This document shows, piece after piece, positions 9,489 through 21,899 of a stretch of DNA of 22,024 bases. Source of the DNA: a virus; the IMG/VR virus record IMGVR_UViG_3300042521_000140, positions 1 through 22,024 of that record; one strand, written 5' to 3'. A model generated the notes under the pieces. That model did no database searches, was not told the DNA's origin, and saw only the letters and a list, made by a program, of their open reading frames with translations. The position numbers and the translations under genes were made by a program. Numbering within the stretch: position 1 is the first letter of the stretch; each line of letters begins with the position of its first letter.

Positions 9489-12400
9489 ATGGCAAACATC
9501 ATCAAGCCCAAGCGGTCAAACACAGCCGCAAAAGTCCCAAACACCACAGAGTTGACCAGTGGTGAGTTGGGTGTCAACATGGCCGACAAAAAAGTCTACA
9601 TCAACAACGGCACGGCTGTTGTTCAGGTGGGGGCGGGTAACCTTAGCGGCCTTGATGATGTCGCTGTATCAAGCCCAACCAACGGGCAATCACTTAGCTA
9701 CAACAGCACAACTTCCAAATGGGTGAACAGTTCAGCGGGTTCCGGAACCGTTACGAGCGTTGGAATCACGCCCGGAACAGGCGTCACTGTAAGCGGAAGC
9801 CCCATCACGACAAGTGGAAACATTGATGTTGGCTTGAGCACCAAACTTACTGCTATTGAAAACTTGTCTGGCGCGGGTTTTTTTACGCAAAACGGCAGCG
9901 GAGCAATTGCAGGGCGAACTTTGCAAGCCGGAACTGGAATCAGCATTGCTCACGGCAACGGTTCCTCACAAGACCCAACTATTACCAACACCGCACCAGA
10001 CCAGACCGTTGCTTTGACGCAGGGCGGCGCGACAACCATCACTGGTACATATCCCAACTTCACGATTTCTAGCGTCAACACGACATACAGCCTTGCCACA
10101 TCAACCGTGGCTGGTCTAGTGGAGTTGGCTTCTGACACCGCGCAAACTGTTGCGGCCAACGCTGTGACGGCTACGGCATCCAGAACCTACGGCCTACAAC
10201 TAAACGCAGCTAGTCAAGGCGTGGTCAACGTGCCTTGGACAGACACCGTGTATTCCTTGCCAGCAGCAACCAGTACGGTTCGGGGTGGTATTGAGTTAAA
10301 TTCAGACACGGCGCAAACCGTGGCCGCAAATTCAGTAACCGCCACAGCTTCCCGAACTTACGGGTTGCAGGTCAACGCAGATGGTCAAGGGGTCATCAAT
10401 GTGCCTTGGACTGACACCGTTTATTCTTTACCAGCGGCTACCAGTACGGTTCGCGGTGGTATTGAATTGGGTTCCGACACGGCGCAAACCGTGGCCGCAA
10501 ACGCAGTAACCGCCACGGCCTCAAGAACTTACGGGTTGCAAGTGAACGCAGATGGGCAAGGTGTTGTCAATGTGCCGTGGACAGACACAACGTACAGCCT
10601 TGCCACCTCAACGGTTCTTGGCTTGATTGAGTTGGGTTCCGACACGCAACAAACAGTTGCTTCAAACGCTGTCACGGCCACAGCATCCCGTTCATACGCC
10701 TTGCAAGTCAATGCGGATGCGCAGGGTGTTGTGAATGTGCCGTGGACAGACACTGTTTATTCCTTGCCAGCAGCGACCAGCACGGTTCGCGGTGGCATTG
10801 AGTTAAATTCAGACACGGCGCAAACCGTGGCCGCAAACGCAGTAAGTGCCACAGCCTCCAGAACTTACGGGTTGCAGATCAACGCAGATGGTCAAGGGGT
10901 CATCAACGTCCCTTGGACAGACACTGTTTATTCCTTGCCAGCAGCAACCAGTACGGTTCGGGGTGGTATTGAGTTAAATTCAGACACAACACAGACCGTG
11001 GCCGCAAATTCAGTGACCGCCACGGCCTCAAGAACTTACGGCTTGCAAGTCAACGCAGCGGATCAGGGTGTTGTGAACGTCCCTTGGACAGATACCGTGT
11101 ATTCCTTGCCAGCAGCTACCAGTACGGTTCGCGGCGGCATTGAGTTGGGTTCAGACACAGCGCAAACCGTGGCCGCAAATTCAGTGACCGCCACGGCTTC
11201 CCGCAGCTATGCGCTGCAAGTGAACGCAGATGGGCAAGGTGTTGTGAACGTGCCGTGGACAGACACCAACTCAGGCGGCACGGTCACAAGCGTATCTGGA
11301 ACAGGAACAGCCTCTGGCTTGTCTTTGTCCGGCACAGTTACAACAAGCGGCAACTTGACGCTATCTGGCACAGTTAATTCGTTGGCGGCTGGAACTTATG
11401 CGATAAGCATCAGCGGGAATGCGGCGACAGCAACCAACGTGGCGTACAGCGGATTGACAGGAACGGTTCCGACATGGAATCAAAACACAACGGGTTCATC
11501 AGGTTCTTGCACAGGCAATGCAGCGACAGCATCAAACGCCTCTTTGTTGAACAGCATTTCGGCAGTGAACTTGTACAACAACATGGGCAACGCCCACAGT
11601 ACAATAACGTCATTTGACGCAACTACGCCAAGTTATGGTTTTGGATACAGGTTTGTTCAAGGTAACACTAACGGCCCCGGAACAGGCGGCACACAATACT
11701 ATTCTTGGTACATCGGTTTAGGTTCGGACTATTTTGCAACAGGTGCTGGTTCATATGGCGCAATGTTTGCAGTTGACCGAAATTCAACAACGCCATATTT
11801 ATCTGTTCGATATAACGAAGCCAACAGCTTTACGGCTTGGCGAAAAATTCACGCTGGCTATGCAGACACAGCAGGTAGCGCAACCACAGCAGGTAGCGCA
11901 ACTACAGCGACTAGCGCAACTACTGCTGGAAACGTGACAGGTACAGTGGCTCTCGCCAACGGCGGCACGGGCGCGACAACAGCGGGCTCAGCAAGAACCA
12001 GCCTTGGAGCCACAACCCTTGGCGCAAACGTGTTTACGGTTCCAAACGTAACCGCAATTGCGTTTCCAAGATTCAACGCTGACAACACGGTGTCCACATT
12101 AGATGCGGCGTCATTTCGCACGGCCATTGGCGCTGGCAACGGAACGGTTACAAGTGTTGCTGTTTCAGGCGGCACAACTGGACTCACTACATCAGGCGGC
12201 CCAATTACAACCAGCGGCACAATTACTTTGGGCGGCACTCTTGCTGTTACGAACGGCGGCACAGGCGCAACAGCGGCGGCGGGGGCGCGTACAAATTTGG
12301 GCGCGACAACCCTTGGCGCAAACGTGTTCACGGTTCCAAACGTGACCGCGATTGCGTTTCCAAGATTTAACGCTGACAACACCGTTTCAACATTAGACGC

Positions 12401-13397
12401 TGCATCATTTCGCACCGCTATTGGAGCAGGCACTGGAAACGGAAACGGAACTGTCACATCAGTTGCAACATCCGGCACTGTCAGCGGCCTGACGCTTACG
12501 GGCGGCACGATTACCACAACAGGCACGATTACTTTGGGCGGCACGCTGGCGGTCACGCCTTCCAACTTTGCAAGTCAAACAGCCAAAACAGTTCTTGCTG
12601 CTCCAAATGCTGCGGATGGTGTTCCCACATTTAGGTTGTTGGTTGCATCTGACATTCCAACTCTGAACCAGAACACGGCAGGAACAGCCGCAAACGTCAC
12701 TGGAACAGTTGCAGTGGCAAATGGCGGCACGGGCGCAACCACTGCCGCTAACGCACTGACAAGCCTTGGGGCTTACCCGTCAAGCAATCCAAGCGGTTAC
12801 ATCACAAACGGTGCAGCAACAGCTTTCCCTGCTGGAACCGTGATGATGTTTGCTCAAACCGCAGCACCTACGGGTTGGACAAAATCAACAACACACGACA
12901 ACAAAGCCTTGCGCGTTGTCAGCGGCACAGCGGGAAGCGGCGGCACGGTGGCATTTACAACAGCATTCGCATCGAAAGCTGTTAGCGGAACTGTTTCTGT
13001 TGGAGTTAGCGCAGGGACACTCAGTGTTGGGGTGGGTACGTTGGCAACGGTTAGCACAACAGCTACAGGTTCTGTTGGGGCAACAACAATCTCAACATCG
13101 CAGATGCCAAGCCATCAGCATTCAAATACGGTAGGCTATACAAACGTCTTTGGAGCCGGGGCAAATGTCAGCTCTGGCGGCTATGGCGGCGGTTACAGCG
13201 GAACAATGGACAACGTACAAGCAACGGGCGGGGGAGGATCGCACAACCATTCGTTTACTGGCAACGGTCACACACACACATTTACCGGGTCGCCAAGTTT
13301 GTCTGGTTCGCCCTCTATCACTTCCGCAACATTCAGCGGCACTGCAATAAACTTGGCAGTGCAATACGTTGATGTGATTATTGCGACCAAAAACTGA
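9489..13397 (+). CDS. Long repetitive tail fibre with collar-type tip
   Basis: 1302 residues, AAGGGAG four bases before ATG. The start NIIKPKRSNTAAKVPN with ELTSGELGVNMADKKVYI parallels the previous fibre. Residues about 198-592 are seven tandem repeats of 55-57 residues. Residues about 685-795 form a domain with tandem aromatic strands ending SVRYNEANSFTAWRKIHAGY, like the pyocin-knob / fibre-head type. Residues about 824-1023 are two copies of a 98-102-residue module. From about 1112 the tip FPAGTVMMFAQTAAPTGWTK, DNKALRVVSGTAGSGG, MPSHQH, GGSHNHSF, GHTHTF and a final LAVQYVDVIIATKN is the common tail-collar type tip. His pairs probably bind metal along the trimer axis. This should be the main receptor-binding fibre. 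Confidence 0.9.
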   Translation: MANIIKPKRSNTAAKVPNTTELTSGELGVNMADKKVYINNGTAVVQVGAGNLSGLDDVAVSSPTNGQSLSYNSTTSKWVNSSAGSGTVTSVGITPGTGVTVSGSPITTSGNIDVGLSTKLTAIENLSGAGFFTQNGSGAIAGRTLQAGTGISIAHGNGSSQDPTITNTAPDQTVALTQGGATTITGTYPNFTISSVNTTYSLATSTVAGLVELASDTAQTVAANAVTATASRTYGLQLNAASQGVVNVPWTDTVYSLPAATSTVRGGIELNSDTAQTVAANSVTATASRTYGLQVNADGQGVINVPWTDTVYSLPAATSTVRGGIELGSDTAQTVAANAVTATASRTYGLQVNADGQGVVNVPWTDTTYSLATSTVLGLIELGSDTQQTVASNAVTATASRSYALQVNADAQGVVNVPWTDTVYSLPAATSTVRGGIELNSDTAQTVAANAVSATASRTYGLQINADGQGVINVPWTDTVYSLPAATSTVRGGIELNSDTTQTVAANSVTATASRTYGLQVNAADQGVVNVPWTDTVYSLPAATSTVRGGIELGSDTAQTVAANSVTATASRSYALQVNADGQGVVNVPWTDTNSGGTVTSVSGTGTASGLSLSGTVTTSGNLTLSGTVNSLAAGTYAISISGNAATATNVAYSGLTGTVPTWNQNTTGSSGSCTGNAATASNASLLNSISAVNLYNNMGNAHSTITSFDATTPSYGFGYRFVQGNTNGPGTGGTQYYSWYIGLGSDYFATGAGSYGAMFAVDRNSTTPYLSVRYNEANSFTAWRKIHAGYADTAGSATTAGSATTATSATTAGNVTGTVALANGGTGATTAGSARTSLGATTLGANVFTVPNVTAIAFPRFNADNTVSTLDAASFRTAIGAGNGTVTSVAVSGGTTGLTTSGGPITTSGTITLGGTLAVTNGGTGATAAAGARTNLGATTLGANVFTVPNVTAIAFPRFNADNTVSTLDAASFRTAIGAGTGNGNGTVTSVATSGTVSGLTLTGGTITTTGTITLGGTLAVTPSNFASQTAKTVLAAPNAADGVPTFRLLVASDIPTLNQNTAGTAANVTGTVAVANGGTGATTAANALTSLGAYPSSNPSGYITNGAATAFPAGTVMMFAQTAAPTGWTKSTTHDNKALRVVSGTAGSGGTVAFTTAFASKAVSGTVSVGVSAGTLSVGVGTLATVSTTATGSVGATTISTSQMPSHQHSNTVGYTNVFGAGANVSSGGYGGGYSGTMDNVQATGGGGSHNHSFTGNGHTHTFTGSPSLSGSPSITSATFSGTAINLAVQYVDVIIATKN
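10080..11264 (+). repeat. Seven-unit in-frame repeat array of the long fibre
   Basis: Units start at 10080, 10245, 10416, 10587, 10752, 10923 and 11094 and end at 11264. Units 1 and 4 are 165 bp (type A: TTYSLATSTV); the other five are 171 bp (type B: TVYSLPAATSTVRGGIEL). All share TASRTYGLQ or TASRSYALQ and end in NVPWTD. The order is A-B-B-A-B-B-B. Units differ by few, mostly synonymous or conservative changes, which points to growth by unequal exchange and homogenisation. Confidence 0.95.
11958..12557 (+). repeat. Duplicated 294/306-bp module in the long fibre
   Basis: Copy 1 is 11958-12251 (294 bp) and copy 2 is 12252-12557 (306 bp, with a 12-base insertion coding extra Gly/Asn/Thr). Each starts NGGTGAT and includes TLGANVFTVPNVTAIAFPRF and DAASFRTAIGAG; the 43-residue central block is identical in protein but differs at several silent positions in DNA. 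Confidence 0.9.
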
Positions 13398-17872: not shown

Positions 17873-18127
17873 TCAAAATGGAATGTCATCATCCATCACA
17901 ACAGGCTGACGTTTAGGGCTAGAAGCCTGTTTAACGGGCCTATCTTCTTTGGGCTTAACCGACAAGCTCATAAACTTTTTACCCGTCTTCTCAGACGTTT
18001 TAAGCCATCCAGAAACCCACATATCAACACCATTGACGTTCAGACTTCCTTTGTAGTCTGGATGGTTGTCTTGTTGCTTGTCATCGTTTTTAAAGATGGC
18101 TCCGCGATTGCTGTTGTCGTATTCCAT
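17873..18127 (-). CDS. SSB-like protein (DUF736-like OB domain with acidic tip)
   Basis: 84 residues; AAGGA six bases before ATG 18127 and overlapping the end of the ERF gene. Residues about 8-58 (NRGAIFKNDDKQQDNHPDYK, GSLNVNGVDMWVSGWLK, GKKFMSLSVKPKED) match the pattern of DUF736-type and phage ssDNA-binding small proteins. The C-terminus MDDDIPF is the acidic tip with terminal Phe that bacterial SSB uses to recruit DNA-processing enzymes. Directly beside the annealing protein, it is a good candidate for a compact single-strand binding protein. Binding activity is inferred, not shown. Confidence 0.75.
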   Translation of the reverse strand: MEYDNSNRGAIFKNDDKQQDNHPDYKGSLNVNGVDMWVSGWLKTSEKTGKKFMSLSVKPKEDRPVKQASSPKRQPVVMDDDIPF

Positions 18128-18129
18128 AT

Positions 18130-18744
18130 TTATTCCTTTGCTTTTTTAATAGCCGACCGGGTTTTGCTATCTAGCAATGACCACAGTGCAACCTTTTGAT
18201 CAGCCTCAAGATTCTCAGAGTCAAGCCTGTCAAGGGCTTGCTTTGGGTTTCCTTCAGCTACGTTAGCGATTAGATCAATCGCTAATTCTTGAAGGTACTG
18301 CATTTCCTCTGGAGGAATAGTGTCTGCAATACCCTGTGATGGTGTGATGATGACTTTCTTTTCTTCAACAGGCTTAGATGAGTCAAGAGCATCGTGTTCT
18401 ACGATCTCAAGCGCAGCAACCCACAAGTATCTGCGAATGTAGGTCTGCACAGCGCCAAGATTCTGCACGGGATGACAGCCTTTAAGATTAGCTTCCGACA
18501 TGGGAGACTCAATCACAATCATTTCTTCTGGCTTGTCAGTATTGATAATCCGCATGTCAGCAGACTCTTTGCCAAAGCTGATAACGCTTGTTAAACCAAC
18601 TTCATCAAAGATGCTTAGTGCTGGAACAATAAAGTCGCCAAGTTCAAAATACTTATAGCCAGCAAACTTGTTGTGGCCTGACTTTTTAATTTCAGTGTTG
18701 TGAAACTGATTACGAGCAGTGTTAAGTTTTTGATAGACGTTCAT
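18130..18744 (-). CDS. ERF-family single-strand annealing recombinase
   Basis: 204 residues, ATGA overlap with the upstream gene. The N-terminus MNVYQKLNTARNQFHNTEIK and the KFAGYKYFELGDFIVPALSI segment match ERF (Essential recombination function) proteins, and the core GAVQTYIRRYLWVAALEIVE with a following DAL (residues about 97-120) is the family signature. ERF proteins anneal complementary single strands and support phage recombination and end repair. The last 70 residues are helical and variable, as in other ERF proteins. The adjacent SSB-like gene and the opposite-strand nucleases form a plausible recombination system. Confidence 0.9.
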   Translation of the reverse strand: MNVYQKLNTARNQFHNTEIKKSGHNKFAGYKYFELGDFIVPALSIFDEVGLTSVISFGKESADMRIINTDKPEEMIVIESPMSEANLKGCHPVQNLGAVQTYIRRYLWVAALEIVEHDALDSSKPVEEKKVIITPSQGIADTIPPEEMQYLQELAIDLIANVAEGNPKQALDRLDSENLEADQKVALWSLLDSKTRSAIKKAKE

Positions 18745-19665: not shown

Positions 19666-20445
19666 ATGCACTATTACCAGTTCCACATTGGTGACTACAA
19701 AAGTCACACCCACCATCTTTCGCAAATGGAAGACTTGGCTTTTCGCCGACTTCTTGACCATTACTATTTGCATGAACAACCAATTAAACAGCGGGACATT
19801 GCTCGTCAGATAGGCATGAGAGAGCATGAACAAGACGTATTAACTGTCTTAAATGAGTTCTTTGTGTCAACTGACGATGGGTTCATAAATCCAAGGGCTG
19901 ACGATGAAATTGCAAAGTATCGCAAGTTCATTGAAGATGGAAAACGTGGGGCGGCTAAGAGGTGGTTAAAGGGTGGCGATGGGGAGGGTAATAGCCCCCC
20001 TATTGCTACCCCAATAGCAACCATTAACCATAACCCACTAACCAATAACCATAAACCAAAGAAAGAGACAGCTATCGCTGTTTGTCCTGTCAATGTTGAA
20101 GAAGCAGTGTGGGTAGACTTCCTTGCTTTACGCAAAGCAAAGAAAGCACCAGTAACGGTCACTGCCTTAACTGGCATCAAGCGGGAAGCAGACAAGGCGA
20201 ACTGGTCGCTTGCAAGGGCAATCACTGAATGCGTTGAAAGAGGCTGGACAAGTTTTAAAGCAGAGTGGGTAGCACCCAAGCAAACCTTTGCCCAACAAGC
20301 CGCTGACGTTGCCCGAACAACAGTCCCTGCCCAACACTCTGGTCGTGACCCTGTGCTGCTTAAAATTGATGCAGACCGTCAGAAGGCTGCGCCCATGCCA
20401 GAACACATTCGTCAACAGATCAACCAAGTTTTGAGGAAAGTATGA
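19666..20445 (+). CDS. DUF1376-domain replication protein
   Basis: 259 residues; GAGG is eight bases before ATG. Residues 1-100 (MHYYQFHIGDYKSHTHHLSQ, LEHYY-type helices and LDHYYLHEQPIKQRDIARQI) match the DUF1376 / YdaU-type winged-helix start of phage replication proteins. A Lys/Asn/Pro-rich linker (about residues 105-140) follows, and the C-terminal domain VWVDFLALRKAKKAPVTVTA with LTGIKREADKANWSLARAIT and ECVERGWTSFKAEWV is the second domain seen in many such proteins and resembles DnaT/O-type partners. It probably binds the origin and recruits host replication factors; no helicase or primase motif is present. Confidence 0.8.
   Translation: MHYYQFHIGDYKSHTHHLSQMEDLAFRRLLDHYYLHEQPIKQRDIARQIGMREHEQDVLTVLNEFFVSTDDGFINPRADDEIAKYRKFIEDGKRGAAKRWLKGGDGEGNSPPIATPIATINHNPLTNNHKPKKETAIAVCPVNVEEAVWVDFLALRKAKKAPVTVTALTGIKREADKANWSLARAITECVERGWTSFKAEWVAPKQTFAQQAADVARTTVPAQHSGRDPVLLKIDADRQKAAPMPEHIRQQINQVLRKV
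20003..20057. other. Candidate replication origin inside the DUF1376 gene
   Basis: TTGCTA (20003-20008) and TAGCAA (20015-20020) form a six-base stem with loop CCCCAA. Next come four TAACC boxes at 20025, 20031, 20039 and 20046, then TAAACC at 20052, six to eight bases apart. They are A+C-rich on the plus strand and encode the Asn/His/Pro linker. Lambda-type phages place iterons inside the initiator gene in the same position. Origin function is inferred. Confidence 0.45.
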
Positions 20446-21060: not shown

Positions 21061-21320
21061 GATACGCAAGCCGTGTGGACGCAAATCAGGCGCAAATCGT
21101 ATCCGCACTTAGAGGTGCTGGCGCTTACGTCTGGATTATTGGCCTACCTGTTGACCTCTTAGTTGGCTACAACGGTCAGACATACTTGGTTGAGATCAAG
21201 GATGGCCCTAAAAAGGTTTTAACGAGGTTACAGCAAGAGTTTTTTGGGAATTGGTGTGGTGGTGGCTTGCATCGCATTGATGGCCCTGAAGACGCTTTAC
21301 GCATGATTGGTGTTTTATGA
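21057..21320 (+). CDS. PD-(D/E)XK nuclease (VRR-NUC or resolvase-like)
   Basis: 87 residues from ATG 21057 (ATGA overlap); an earlier in-frame start at 21009 lies inside the previous gene. D33 in GLPVDLLVGYNG and E46/K48 in YLVEIKDGPKK form the D ... ExK core of PD-(D/E)XK nucleases, and the following LTRLQQEFFGNW helix with a final HRIDGPEDALRMIG matches small phage endonucleases of the VRR-NUC type. It is likely to cut branched or flap DNA in recombination or replication. Substrate is not known. Confidence 0.75.
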   Translation: MRYASRVDANQAQIVSALRGAGAYVWIIGLPVDLLVGYNGQTYLVEIKDGPKKVLTRLQQEFFGNWCGGGLHRIDGPEDALRMIGVL

Positions 21321-21628
21321 CACCTGACATGAAAAGCCGTGAGCAAGAAAAGTTGTATCACGCAATCATCAACCAGATTGCCAAACAGTCAAAGCTGCAC
21401 GGTAGCCGCTGGTCAACAGAGTCATGGAAACGATACCTGATAGACCAGTGGGCGCATGAGAACGGAGAGTCAGCATCTGTCAGCAAAGTCATGCCAAGCA
21501 TTGATGGTTTGCGGATAGTACAGCTAGGACTGCAAAGCAGACGGTTTACCAAAGAGCAAGCCATTAGTTTTACTGAGTGGCTGTTGTATTGGGCCAACAC
21601 AAACGGGGTAACGCTTGAAGAACGCTGA
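21317..21628 (+). CDS. ninB: NinB-like recombination protein, short form
   Basis: 103 residues, ATGA overlap. MKSREQEKLYHAIINQIAKQ followed by GSRWSTESWKRYLIDQW and PSIDGLRIVQLGLQSRRFTK, then FTEWLLYWANTNGVTL corresponds in order to the part of lambda NinB (Orf) from its RSLDQNRKLW region onward. About 40 N-terminal residues of lambda NinB are missing, as is the far C-terminus. NinB binds single-stranded DNA and SSB and can replace RecFOR functions. Whether this short form keeps activity is unknown. Confidence 0.8.
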   Translation: MTPDMKSREQEKLYHAIINQIAKQSKLHGSRWSTESWKRYLIDQWAHENGESASVSKVMPSIDGLRIVQLGLQSRRFTKEQAISFTEWLLYWANTNGVTLEER

Positions 21629-21899
21629 AATTATTCATAAAGGCAAAGTGGCAAGCCTTGGCTGTGCGCTATGTCATCACTTGCATGGCGAACATGAGCC
21701 GGGGCCAGTGGAGTTACACCACCTAAGAGCAGGGGGTTGGGGCAAAGGCGACTACAAGACACTTATTCCTTTATGCGTAGAACATCATCGTGGCAATAAG
21801 GGTTTCCACGGGCTTGGAAACAAAGGTTTTGTTGACTACTATGACATCACTCAGCAACAACTGCTTGAGTGGACACTTAACAAGATAGGACAAACATGA
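21615..21899 (+). CDS. Ref-like HNH nuclease domain protein
   Basis: 94 residues from TTG 21615, 14 bases inside ninB; GGGG is six bases before it. After KVASLGCALCHHLHGEHEPG comes VELHHLRAGGWGKGDYKTLI and PLCVEHHRGNKGFHGLGNKG, then FVDYYDITQQQLLEW. This is the C-terminal nuclease part of the Ref family (RecA-dependent nuclease of phage P1): Cys pair, ELHHLR, IPLC..HHR and GFHG. P1 Ref has a long extra N-terminal region that is absent here. It probably cuts DNA at RecA-bound joints or acts as a simple HNH nuclease. Confidence 0.8.
   Translation: MKNAEIIHKGKVASLGCALCHHLHGEHEPGPVELHHLRAGGWGKGDYKTLIPLCVEHHRGNKGFHGLGNKGFVDYYDITQQQLLEWTLNKIGQT

Follow-up and report, generated by a model that had tools for sequence, protein, structure and literature searches.

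Does a phage gene that encodes a candidate replication initiator also carry, within its own coding sequence, the site at which replication starts? The question is raised by IMG/VR virus record IMGVR_UViG_3300042521_000140, positions 1 to 22,024 (the 22,024-nucleotide stretch analysed here, hereafter the window), in which short repeats lie in the linker of a gene of the DUF1376/YdaU family. An earlier note, made from the letters of the sequence, had proposed that TAACC boxes in this linker form an iteron origin of the kind found within lambda gene O. With a probability of about 0.8, we conclude that the linker is a lambda-like replication origin lying inside its own initiator gene, where we infer both the start of replication and binding by the encoded protein. 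The gene and its two domains are as follows.

19666 to 20445, + strand: DUF1376/YdaU-family gene of 259 amino acids, candidate replication initiator (Pfam PF07120, E = 2e-21; PHROGs).
19669 to 19914, + strand: N-terminal DUF1376 domain (residues 2–83), predicted to be winged-helix-like, candidate iteron reader (PF07120; AlphaFold2, AF2, model; weak winged-helix matches).
20101 to 20442, + strand: helical C-terminal domain (residues 146–258), exchanged among relatives 3' of the repeats (AF2 model; variable C-termini beside similar N-domains).

Membership of the DUF1376/YdaU family follows from the Pfam match (76.6 bits against a cut-off of 30.1, residues 2–83), and the Pfam search of the gene gave DUF1376 alone, with no plasmid Rep-family initiator. 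In PHROGs, the N-domain corresponds to a primosomal protein and residues 120–214 to phrog_678, ‘replication initiation O-like’; annotated relatives call the gene hypothetical or primosomal. In the AF2 model, the N-domain extends to about residue 101 and is helical with a small two-strand element, while linker residues 107–124 have a predicted local distance difference test score below 50 and are predicted to be disordered. The model and the position of the repeats thus bear out the claim that the boxes lie in a linker between two domains: as in lambda-type origins, the repeats are inside the coding sequence, between the DNA-binding and C-terminal parts. A Foldseek search of the predicted structure against the PDB returned no match at E ≤ 0.001, and a second structural comparison, of the N-domain, returned winged-helix-like entries with Z of at most 6.5, which may reflect a mere common arrangement.

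On re-reading the sequence, TAACC starts at 20025, 20031, 20039 and 20046 and TAAACC at 20052, exactly where the earlier note had put them. These boxes are the visible part of a larger tandem array with a 7-bp period, followed by an A-rich tail.

20019 to 20060, + strand: tandem 7-bp array with the units AACCATT, AACCATA, ACCCACT, AACCAAT, AACCATA and AACCAAA, candidate unwinding or loading element (sequence, lag scan, Tandem Repeats Finder, conservation).
20061 to 20070, + strand: A-rich tail directly 3' of the array, GAAAGAGACA (sequence; family trend of an AT-rich first 10 nt).

TAACC is not enriched over the whole window (33 matches against 30.99 expected), so that it is the cluster that counts and not the total: none of 300 Markov-1 random windows had as many as four starts on one strand within 21 nt. 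The array is the lag-7 maximum of all 22,024 bases, with 26 of 35 matches where the next best site has 18, and its score was reached by none of 300 whole-window and none of 2,000 local Markov sequences, on which grounds a chance origin of cluster and array is rejected. The lag-14 maximum of the window also falls at the array, and Tandem Repeats Finder independently reported 20019–20058 with period 7 and 5.7 copies. The units are not identical copies, the third (ACCCACT) being degenerate, and the core repeats leave one strand without G. The adjacent AT-rich tract of lambda-type origins is present as judged by composition: across 157 representatives of the family that differ in their N-domain, the AT fraction is 0.67 in the array, 0.74 in the next 10 nt and 0.54 in the open reading frame (ORF), and in ORFs of at least 50% GC the corresponding values are 0.66, 0.72 and 0.45. 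DnaA boxes were rejected as a component; matches to TTATNCACA with one mismatch are rarer than chance in the window and none lies near the element.

Is it the DNA or the peptide that is conserved in the linker? Viral relatives were collected by peptide stretches outside the linker (80 loci, reduced to 60 distinct ORFs and 34 representatives). Among the 34, the same-codon probability is 0.977 in the linker core as compared with 0.510 in the N-domain and 0.464 in the C-domain, and residue conservation is 0.81 in the linker and 0.82 in the N-domain. In bacterial genomes, a degenerate linker peptide used as the sole query gave 225 pattern matches, comprising 46 relatives and 179 non-relatives. The 7-bp DNA words were retained in 45 of these 46 relatives, whose GC content, taken locus by locus, ranges over 34–67%; Asn was encoded by AAC in 92 of 92 cases at two fixed places and Pro by CCA in 46 of 46, and one relative carried one synonymous change of a linker codon. 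The result named beforehand as speaking against the proposed origin, that relatives lose the boxes through synonymous changes, was looked for and did not occur.

The same conclusion follows from periodicity. Linker autocorrelation at lags 7, 14 and 21 is 0.73, 0.72 and 0.74, against 0.48, 0.47 and 0.63 in synonymous shuffles and 0.25–0.28 in the domains. Since 7 is not a multiple of 3 and the codons are nevertheless kept, the constraint acts at the level of DNA; the linker is constrained as DNA rather than as peptide, as the earlier note had suggested. For the same arithmetical reason the unit passes through all reading frames, and all three codon phases are used at the start of the array across phages (128, 78 and 4 of 210). 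At position 7 of the heptamer T is the commonest base unless it would create a TAA stop; in the frame concerned, 97.8% of units have a base other than T, as compared with 19–27% in the other two frames, and this avoidance explains much of the way in which HK and QE alternate in the peptide. Third codon positions within the core were changed in 10 of 1,390 cases and first or second positions within the spacer in 526 of 1,113, a comparison that is partly circular because the arrays were found by their core; the codon-probability and bacterial-relative tests are non-circular.

The array is not peculiar to this phage. An 18-mer of it occurs in at least 120 viral stretches and, among the matches listed, 115 of the 117 distinct ORFs of at least 100 amino acids around it match DUF1376. 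A looser 26-position pattern yielded 35 further loci among the matches listed, 33 of them with an open frame over the repeat; 28 of the 33 have a DUF1376 domain, two appear from their translations to be cut by a contig end and three are other simple repeats. These three, at L410, L426 and L432, are AACCANN-like and lie in ORFs without a DUF1376 domain, two of them being AACCAAG runs. When 141 bp taken from the window were compared by blastn with 50,697 phage records, 9 of these matched, the alignments falling on the array region. Two or more AACCANN units are present at 340 of 371 loci, a count that is biased because many loci were picked by the 18-mer or by peptide. An unbiased set was therefore limited to loci picked by the domain alone or by whole-protein similarity, with P assessed against synonymous shuffles; 15 linker-selected loci (L248–L262), 10 loci without a hit to the N-domain model, one with Ns and one that was too short were dropped before counting. 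Among the 24 strong-domain loci of this set, P ≤ 0.05 was reached by 14 at lag 7 and by 12 at lag 11, and by 1–3 at each of six other lags. The 7-bp period also occurs with other cores, namely AAACACT (L258, from a linker-selected genome), CACCAGN (L267, L293) and ACACANN (L047). In Vibrio phage 1.052.A (L392), a five-copy perfect TACCCAA array occupies the same site in place of AACCANN, so that the period can persist with a different core. The exact preservation of the array in many phages that are only distantly related suggests that a landing site for the start of replication is part of the gene as well.

If the array is common to the family, what could make an origin specific to its initiator? 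Immediately 5' of the array lies a second set of repeats.

19986 to 19996, + strand: degenerate upstream repeat copy, GGGTAATAGCC (sequence; register by inspection only).
19997 to 20006, + strand: upstream direct repeat 1, CCCCTATTGC, class-specific iteron candidate (exact CCCCWATWGC match).
20009 to 20018, + strand: upstream direct repeat 2, CCCCAATAGC, 12 bp from the previous copy (exact CCCCWATWGC match).
20003 to 20020, + strand: small stem, TTGCTA (20003–20008) with TAGCAA (20015–20020) around a 6-nt loop, overlapping both repeats (DNA fold z = −1.84).

Exact matches to CCCCWATWGC occur at 19997 and 20009 and nowhere else in the window. The small stem that the earlier note had seen ahead of the boxes is present, although its fold is weak, with 11 of 200 shuffles folding equally well, and it coincides with the two direct repeats; a hairpin was accordingly set aside as a functional part. 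In the 72 nt 5' of the array of the 157 representatives, autocorrelation at lag 11 is 0.473, as compared with 0.336 in synonymous shuffles and 0.283 in the domains, and lag 22 is raised too. The best lag in the 60 nt upstream is 11 in 119 of the 157 and 12 in 24; a reading of the repeats as 12-bp in-frame units was rejected, the lag test having given 11 bp for most classes. In the window's own class (18 members), lags 11 and 12 are about equal, at 0.44 and 0.45. Counted from the array, positions −2, −13 and −24 share a conserved C, which places upstream repeats and array in register.

The upstream repeats fall into classes. Six clusters of at least five members take in 132 of the 157 representatives, with GTTCAAC, GCAATGC, AACCCAG and AAATCAG types among them. 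The similarity of N-domains is 0.475 for members of one repeat class and 0.342 across classes (a difference as large in 0 of 1,000 permutations), whereas C-domain similarity is 0.131 within and 0.116 between (10 of 1,000), this comparison resting on the 127 of 132 clustered representatives with enough C-domain. A rank Mantel test on 152 of the 157 gave a partial r between upstream repeats and N-domain of 0.156, which is small but exceeds the permuted maximum of 0.042, and a partial r of −0.031 for the C-domain. The upstream repeats thus track the N-terminal domain and hardly the swapped C-terminal domain; in L311–L390, near-identical N-domains and upstream repeats are followed directly after the array by different C-domains, and such exchange makes the array the boundary of shuffling. 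The boxes are conserved repeats, but an initiator-specific role is better assigned to the upstream repeats hidden in the ‘stem’; because the 7-bp repeats extend across the sequence classes of the family, they are more likely to be a common unwinding or loading element. The array is probably an unwinding array, and we favour, with some reservation, a two-part division of labour between initiator-specific upstream iterons and a common 7-bp array.

Initiation at such an origin might proceed in three steps. The winged-helix-like DUF1376 domain would bind the class-specific direct repeats at 19986–20018, whose spacing, mostly 11 bp across the family, is about one helical turn. The AT-rich 7-bp array (20019–20060) and the A-rich tail would then open, and the repeats of the array may stay bound in single-stranded form, in the way that repeated unwinding elements are held by plasmid Rep proteins. 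Finally, the exchangeable C-terminal domain would recruit a helicase or its loader. As neither 7 nor 11 is a multiple of 3, the amino acids of the linker would be largely a by-product.

The parallel with lambda gene O drawn in the earlier note is supported by the anatomy: in both, origin-like repeats lie between the N- and C-terminal parts of the initiator gene and are followed by AT-rich DNA. The lambda iterons occupy 349–433 of the 900-nt O gene in its feature table and the present element about 321–395 of its gene, and the C-domain encoded in the window matches an O-like PHROG. In lambda, iterons in the middle of O bind O and the neighbouring AT-rich tract opens (PMC5043065, PMC7466680); there are four iterons of about 18–19 bp with dyad symmetry, which bind O dimers, and the AT-rich tract is 40 bp long (PMC5043065). 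Unlike lambda, the family has direct repeats spaced by 11 or 12 bp and a 7-bp tandem array, with an N-domain from DUF1376; in place of iterons of about 18–19 bp with dyad symmetry, the element in the window has the 7-bp tandem and the 12-bp-spaced direct repeats. Iteron plasmid origins offer a second comparison. Their direct-repeat iterons are described as lying in helical phase (PMC5043065); the family has an 11-bp period, and the two exact copies in the window are 12 bp apart. At RK2-type origins, Rep is reported to bind the iterons and, simultaneously, a single strand of the repeated unwinding element (PMC4081077). RK2 oriV resembles the arrangement proposed here in having direct-repeat iterons beside an unwinding element built of tandem repeats, and differs in that the window has one DUF1376 domain and a candidate origin inside the initiator gene. 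Intragenic phage origins are already known, and the DUF1376 case is a distinct variant in another initiator family; for the terms tried, no description of a DUF1376/YdaU origin was found in the open literature.

Genome context is in part consistent with a role in initiation. Of 11 annotated DUF1376 records, nine have a following gene annotated as helicase, helicase loader, primase/helicase, replication protein P, IstB-like ATPase or, in Rac ydaV, a putative ATP-binding protein; in the other two, phiAC-1 and BA3, it is hypothetical. In the window, no gene of these kinds was seen. The lag-7 site of the DUF1376 gene is the strongest in six of eight phage genomes and ranks 6 and 47 in ctQRb9 and AH02, and its lag-11 site ranks 1 to 5 genome-wide in all eight. 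In seven of the eight, the minimum of the cumulative GC skew is no further than 0.11 of genome length from the gene; in cta1H496 the maximum is there instead. Cumulative skew had been put forward as a check, and the window does show a sign change near 19.1 kb, but gene direction changes at the same place, so that the skew of the window is not decisive.

Several observations weigh against the locus being an origin of this kind, or against its generality. Gene direction confounds GC skew as such. DnaB_C (PF03796) and IstB (PF01695) were not found in 13 long contigs of the window's relatives, nor lambda P (PF06992) in 14 records, these 13 and the window. The two upstream copies of the window are 12 bp apart rather than 11, and the residues that track repeat class peak at 40–51, with residue 60 also high, rather than in the expected DNA-reading helix at 52–65; the structural matches to known folds are weak. 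Lag 7 fails to reach P ≤ 0.05 in ten of the 24 strong-domain genes, and weak-domain DUF1376 genes mostly have neither the 7-bp nor the 11-bp period (these being found in 3 and 6 of 20), so that the architecture is not universal in DUF1376. Rac ydaU of Escherichia coli K-12 has upstream-type repeats but no 7-bp array.

Four other explanations were weighed. The array could be a recombination junction, a short homology used for swapping C-domains behind a fixed N-domain and conserved through recent exchange; this would fit both the change of C-domain right after the array, with N-domain and upstream repeats staying together, and the near identity of arrays across distant hosts. It does not predict helically spaced upstream repeats that track the N-domain, AT-rich composition or different cores with the same 7-bp period (L258, L267, L392), and exchange may itself be a consequence of having a common block; we consider it unlikely. 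Less probable still is an operator that controls the initiator or genes beside it. Initiators often regulate themselves, and a protein with a DNA-binding domain is encoded beside the repeats, but the site, about 320 bp into the gene, is not at a promoter, and the window contains no further exact copies of the upstream repeat.

We give hardly any credence to the two remaining explanations. Were the Asn/His/Lys/Pro linker, with its NHKPITN repeat, kept as a protein motif that the DNA merely follows, linker residues about as conserved as those of the N-domain would be expected, as is found; yet synonymous sites are invariant in hosts that differ widely in GC, the first array unit is found in each of the three codon phases and so encodes different peptides, the lag-7 signal is lost in synonymous shuffles, and the linker is predicted to be disordered. 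Replication slippage, or a simple-sequence repeat without function, would account for a heptamer copy number that ranges from 3 to 10 across the family and has a precedent in the three unrelated simple repeats among the 33 DNA-only hits outside the earlier sets. It does not account for a fixed place in one gene family, for a register locked to the upstream repeats or for array units that are not identical copies.

The surroundings of the gene include recombination genes on both flanks: an ERF-like annealing protein and a single-strand binding protein at 17873–18744 on the − strand, and NinB and an HNH/RecA-dependent-nuclease-like gene at 21317–21899 on the + strand. Elsewhere in the window, a 1,302-amino-acid ORF (9489–13397) in the tail-gene part contains 171-bp tandem repeats (6.7 copies, 10122–11267) with a 342-bp higher-order period.

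Returning to the origin, part of the proposal is testable in the Rac prophage of E. coli K-12. There, ydaU is annotated as DUF1376 and is followed by ydaV, and the ydaU linker (L308, 4472–4600) carries TGTTCAA-type repeats with spacings of 33, 33 and 12, like the GTTCAAC class of the family; in NC_000913.3 this repeat region falls at about 1,421,470–1,421,600. Rac is reported to have an active origin, oriJ (PMC3945230), and the ydaU repeats are possibly relevant to its location.

On balance, we lean towards the view that DUF1376/YdaU initiators form a widespread group of phage origins, in which class-specific 11-bp repeats are read by a matching N-domain and followed by a universal 7-bp unwinding array that also serves as a block for exchange of C-domains. 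DUF1376 is still named a domain of unknown function; if this view is correct, its job would be origin recognition, and an origin readable from sequence alone could be predicted for many proteobacterial phages and prophages and for some from other phyla. At least six matched classes of reader and repeat would provide a natural panel for the choice of DNA by a winged-helix-like domain, and the linker would show cleanly how a protein code can be overlain by two DNA codes.
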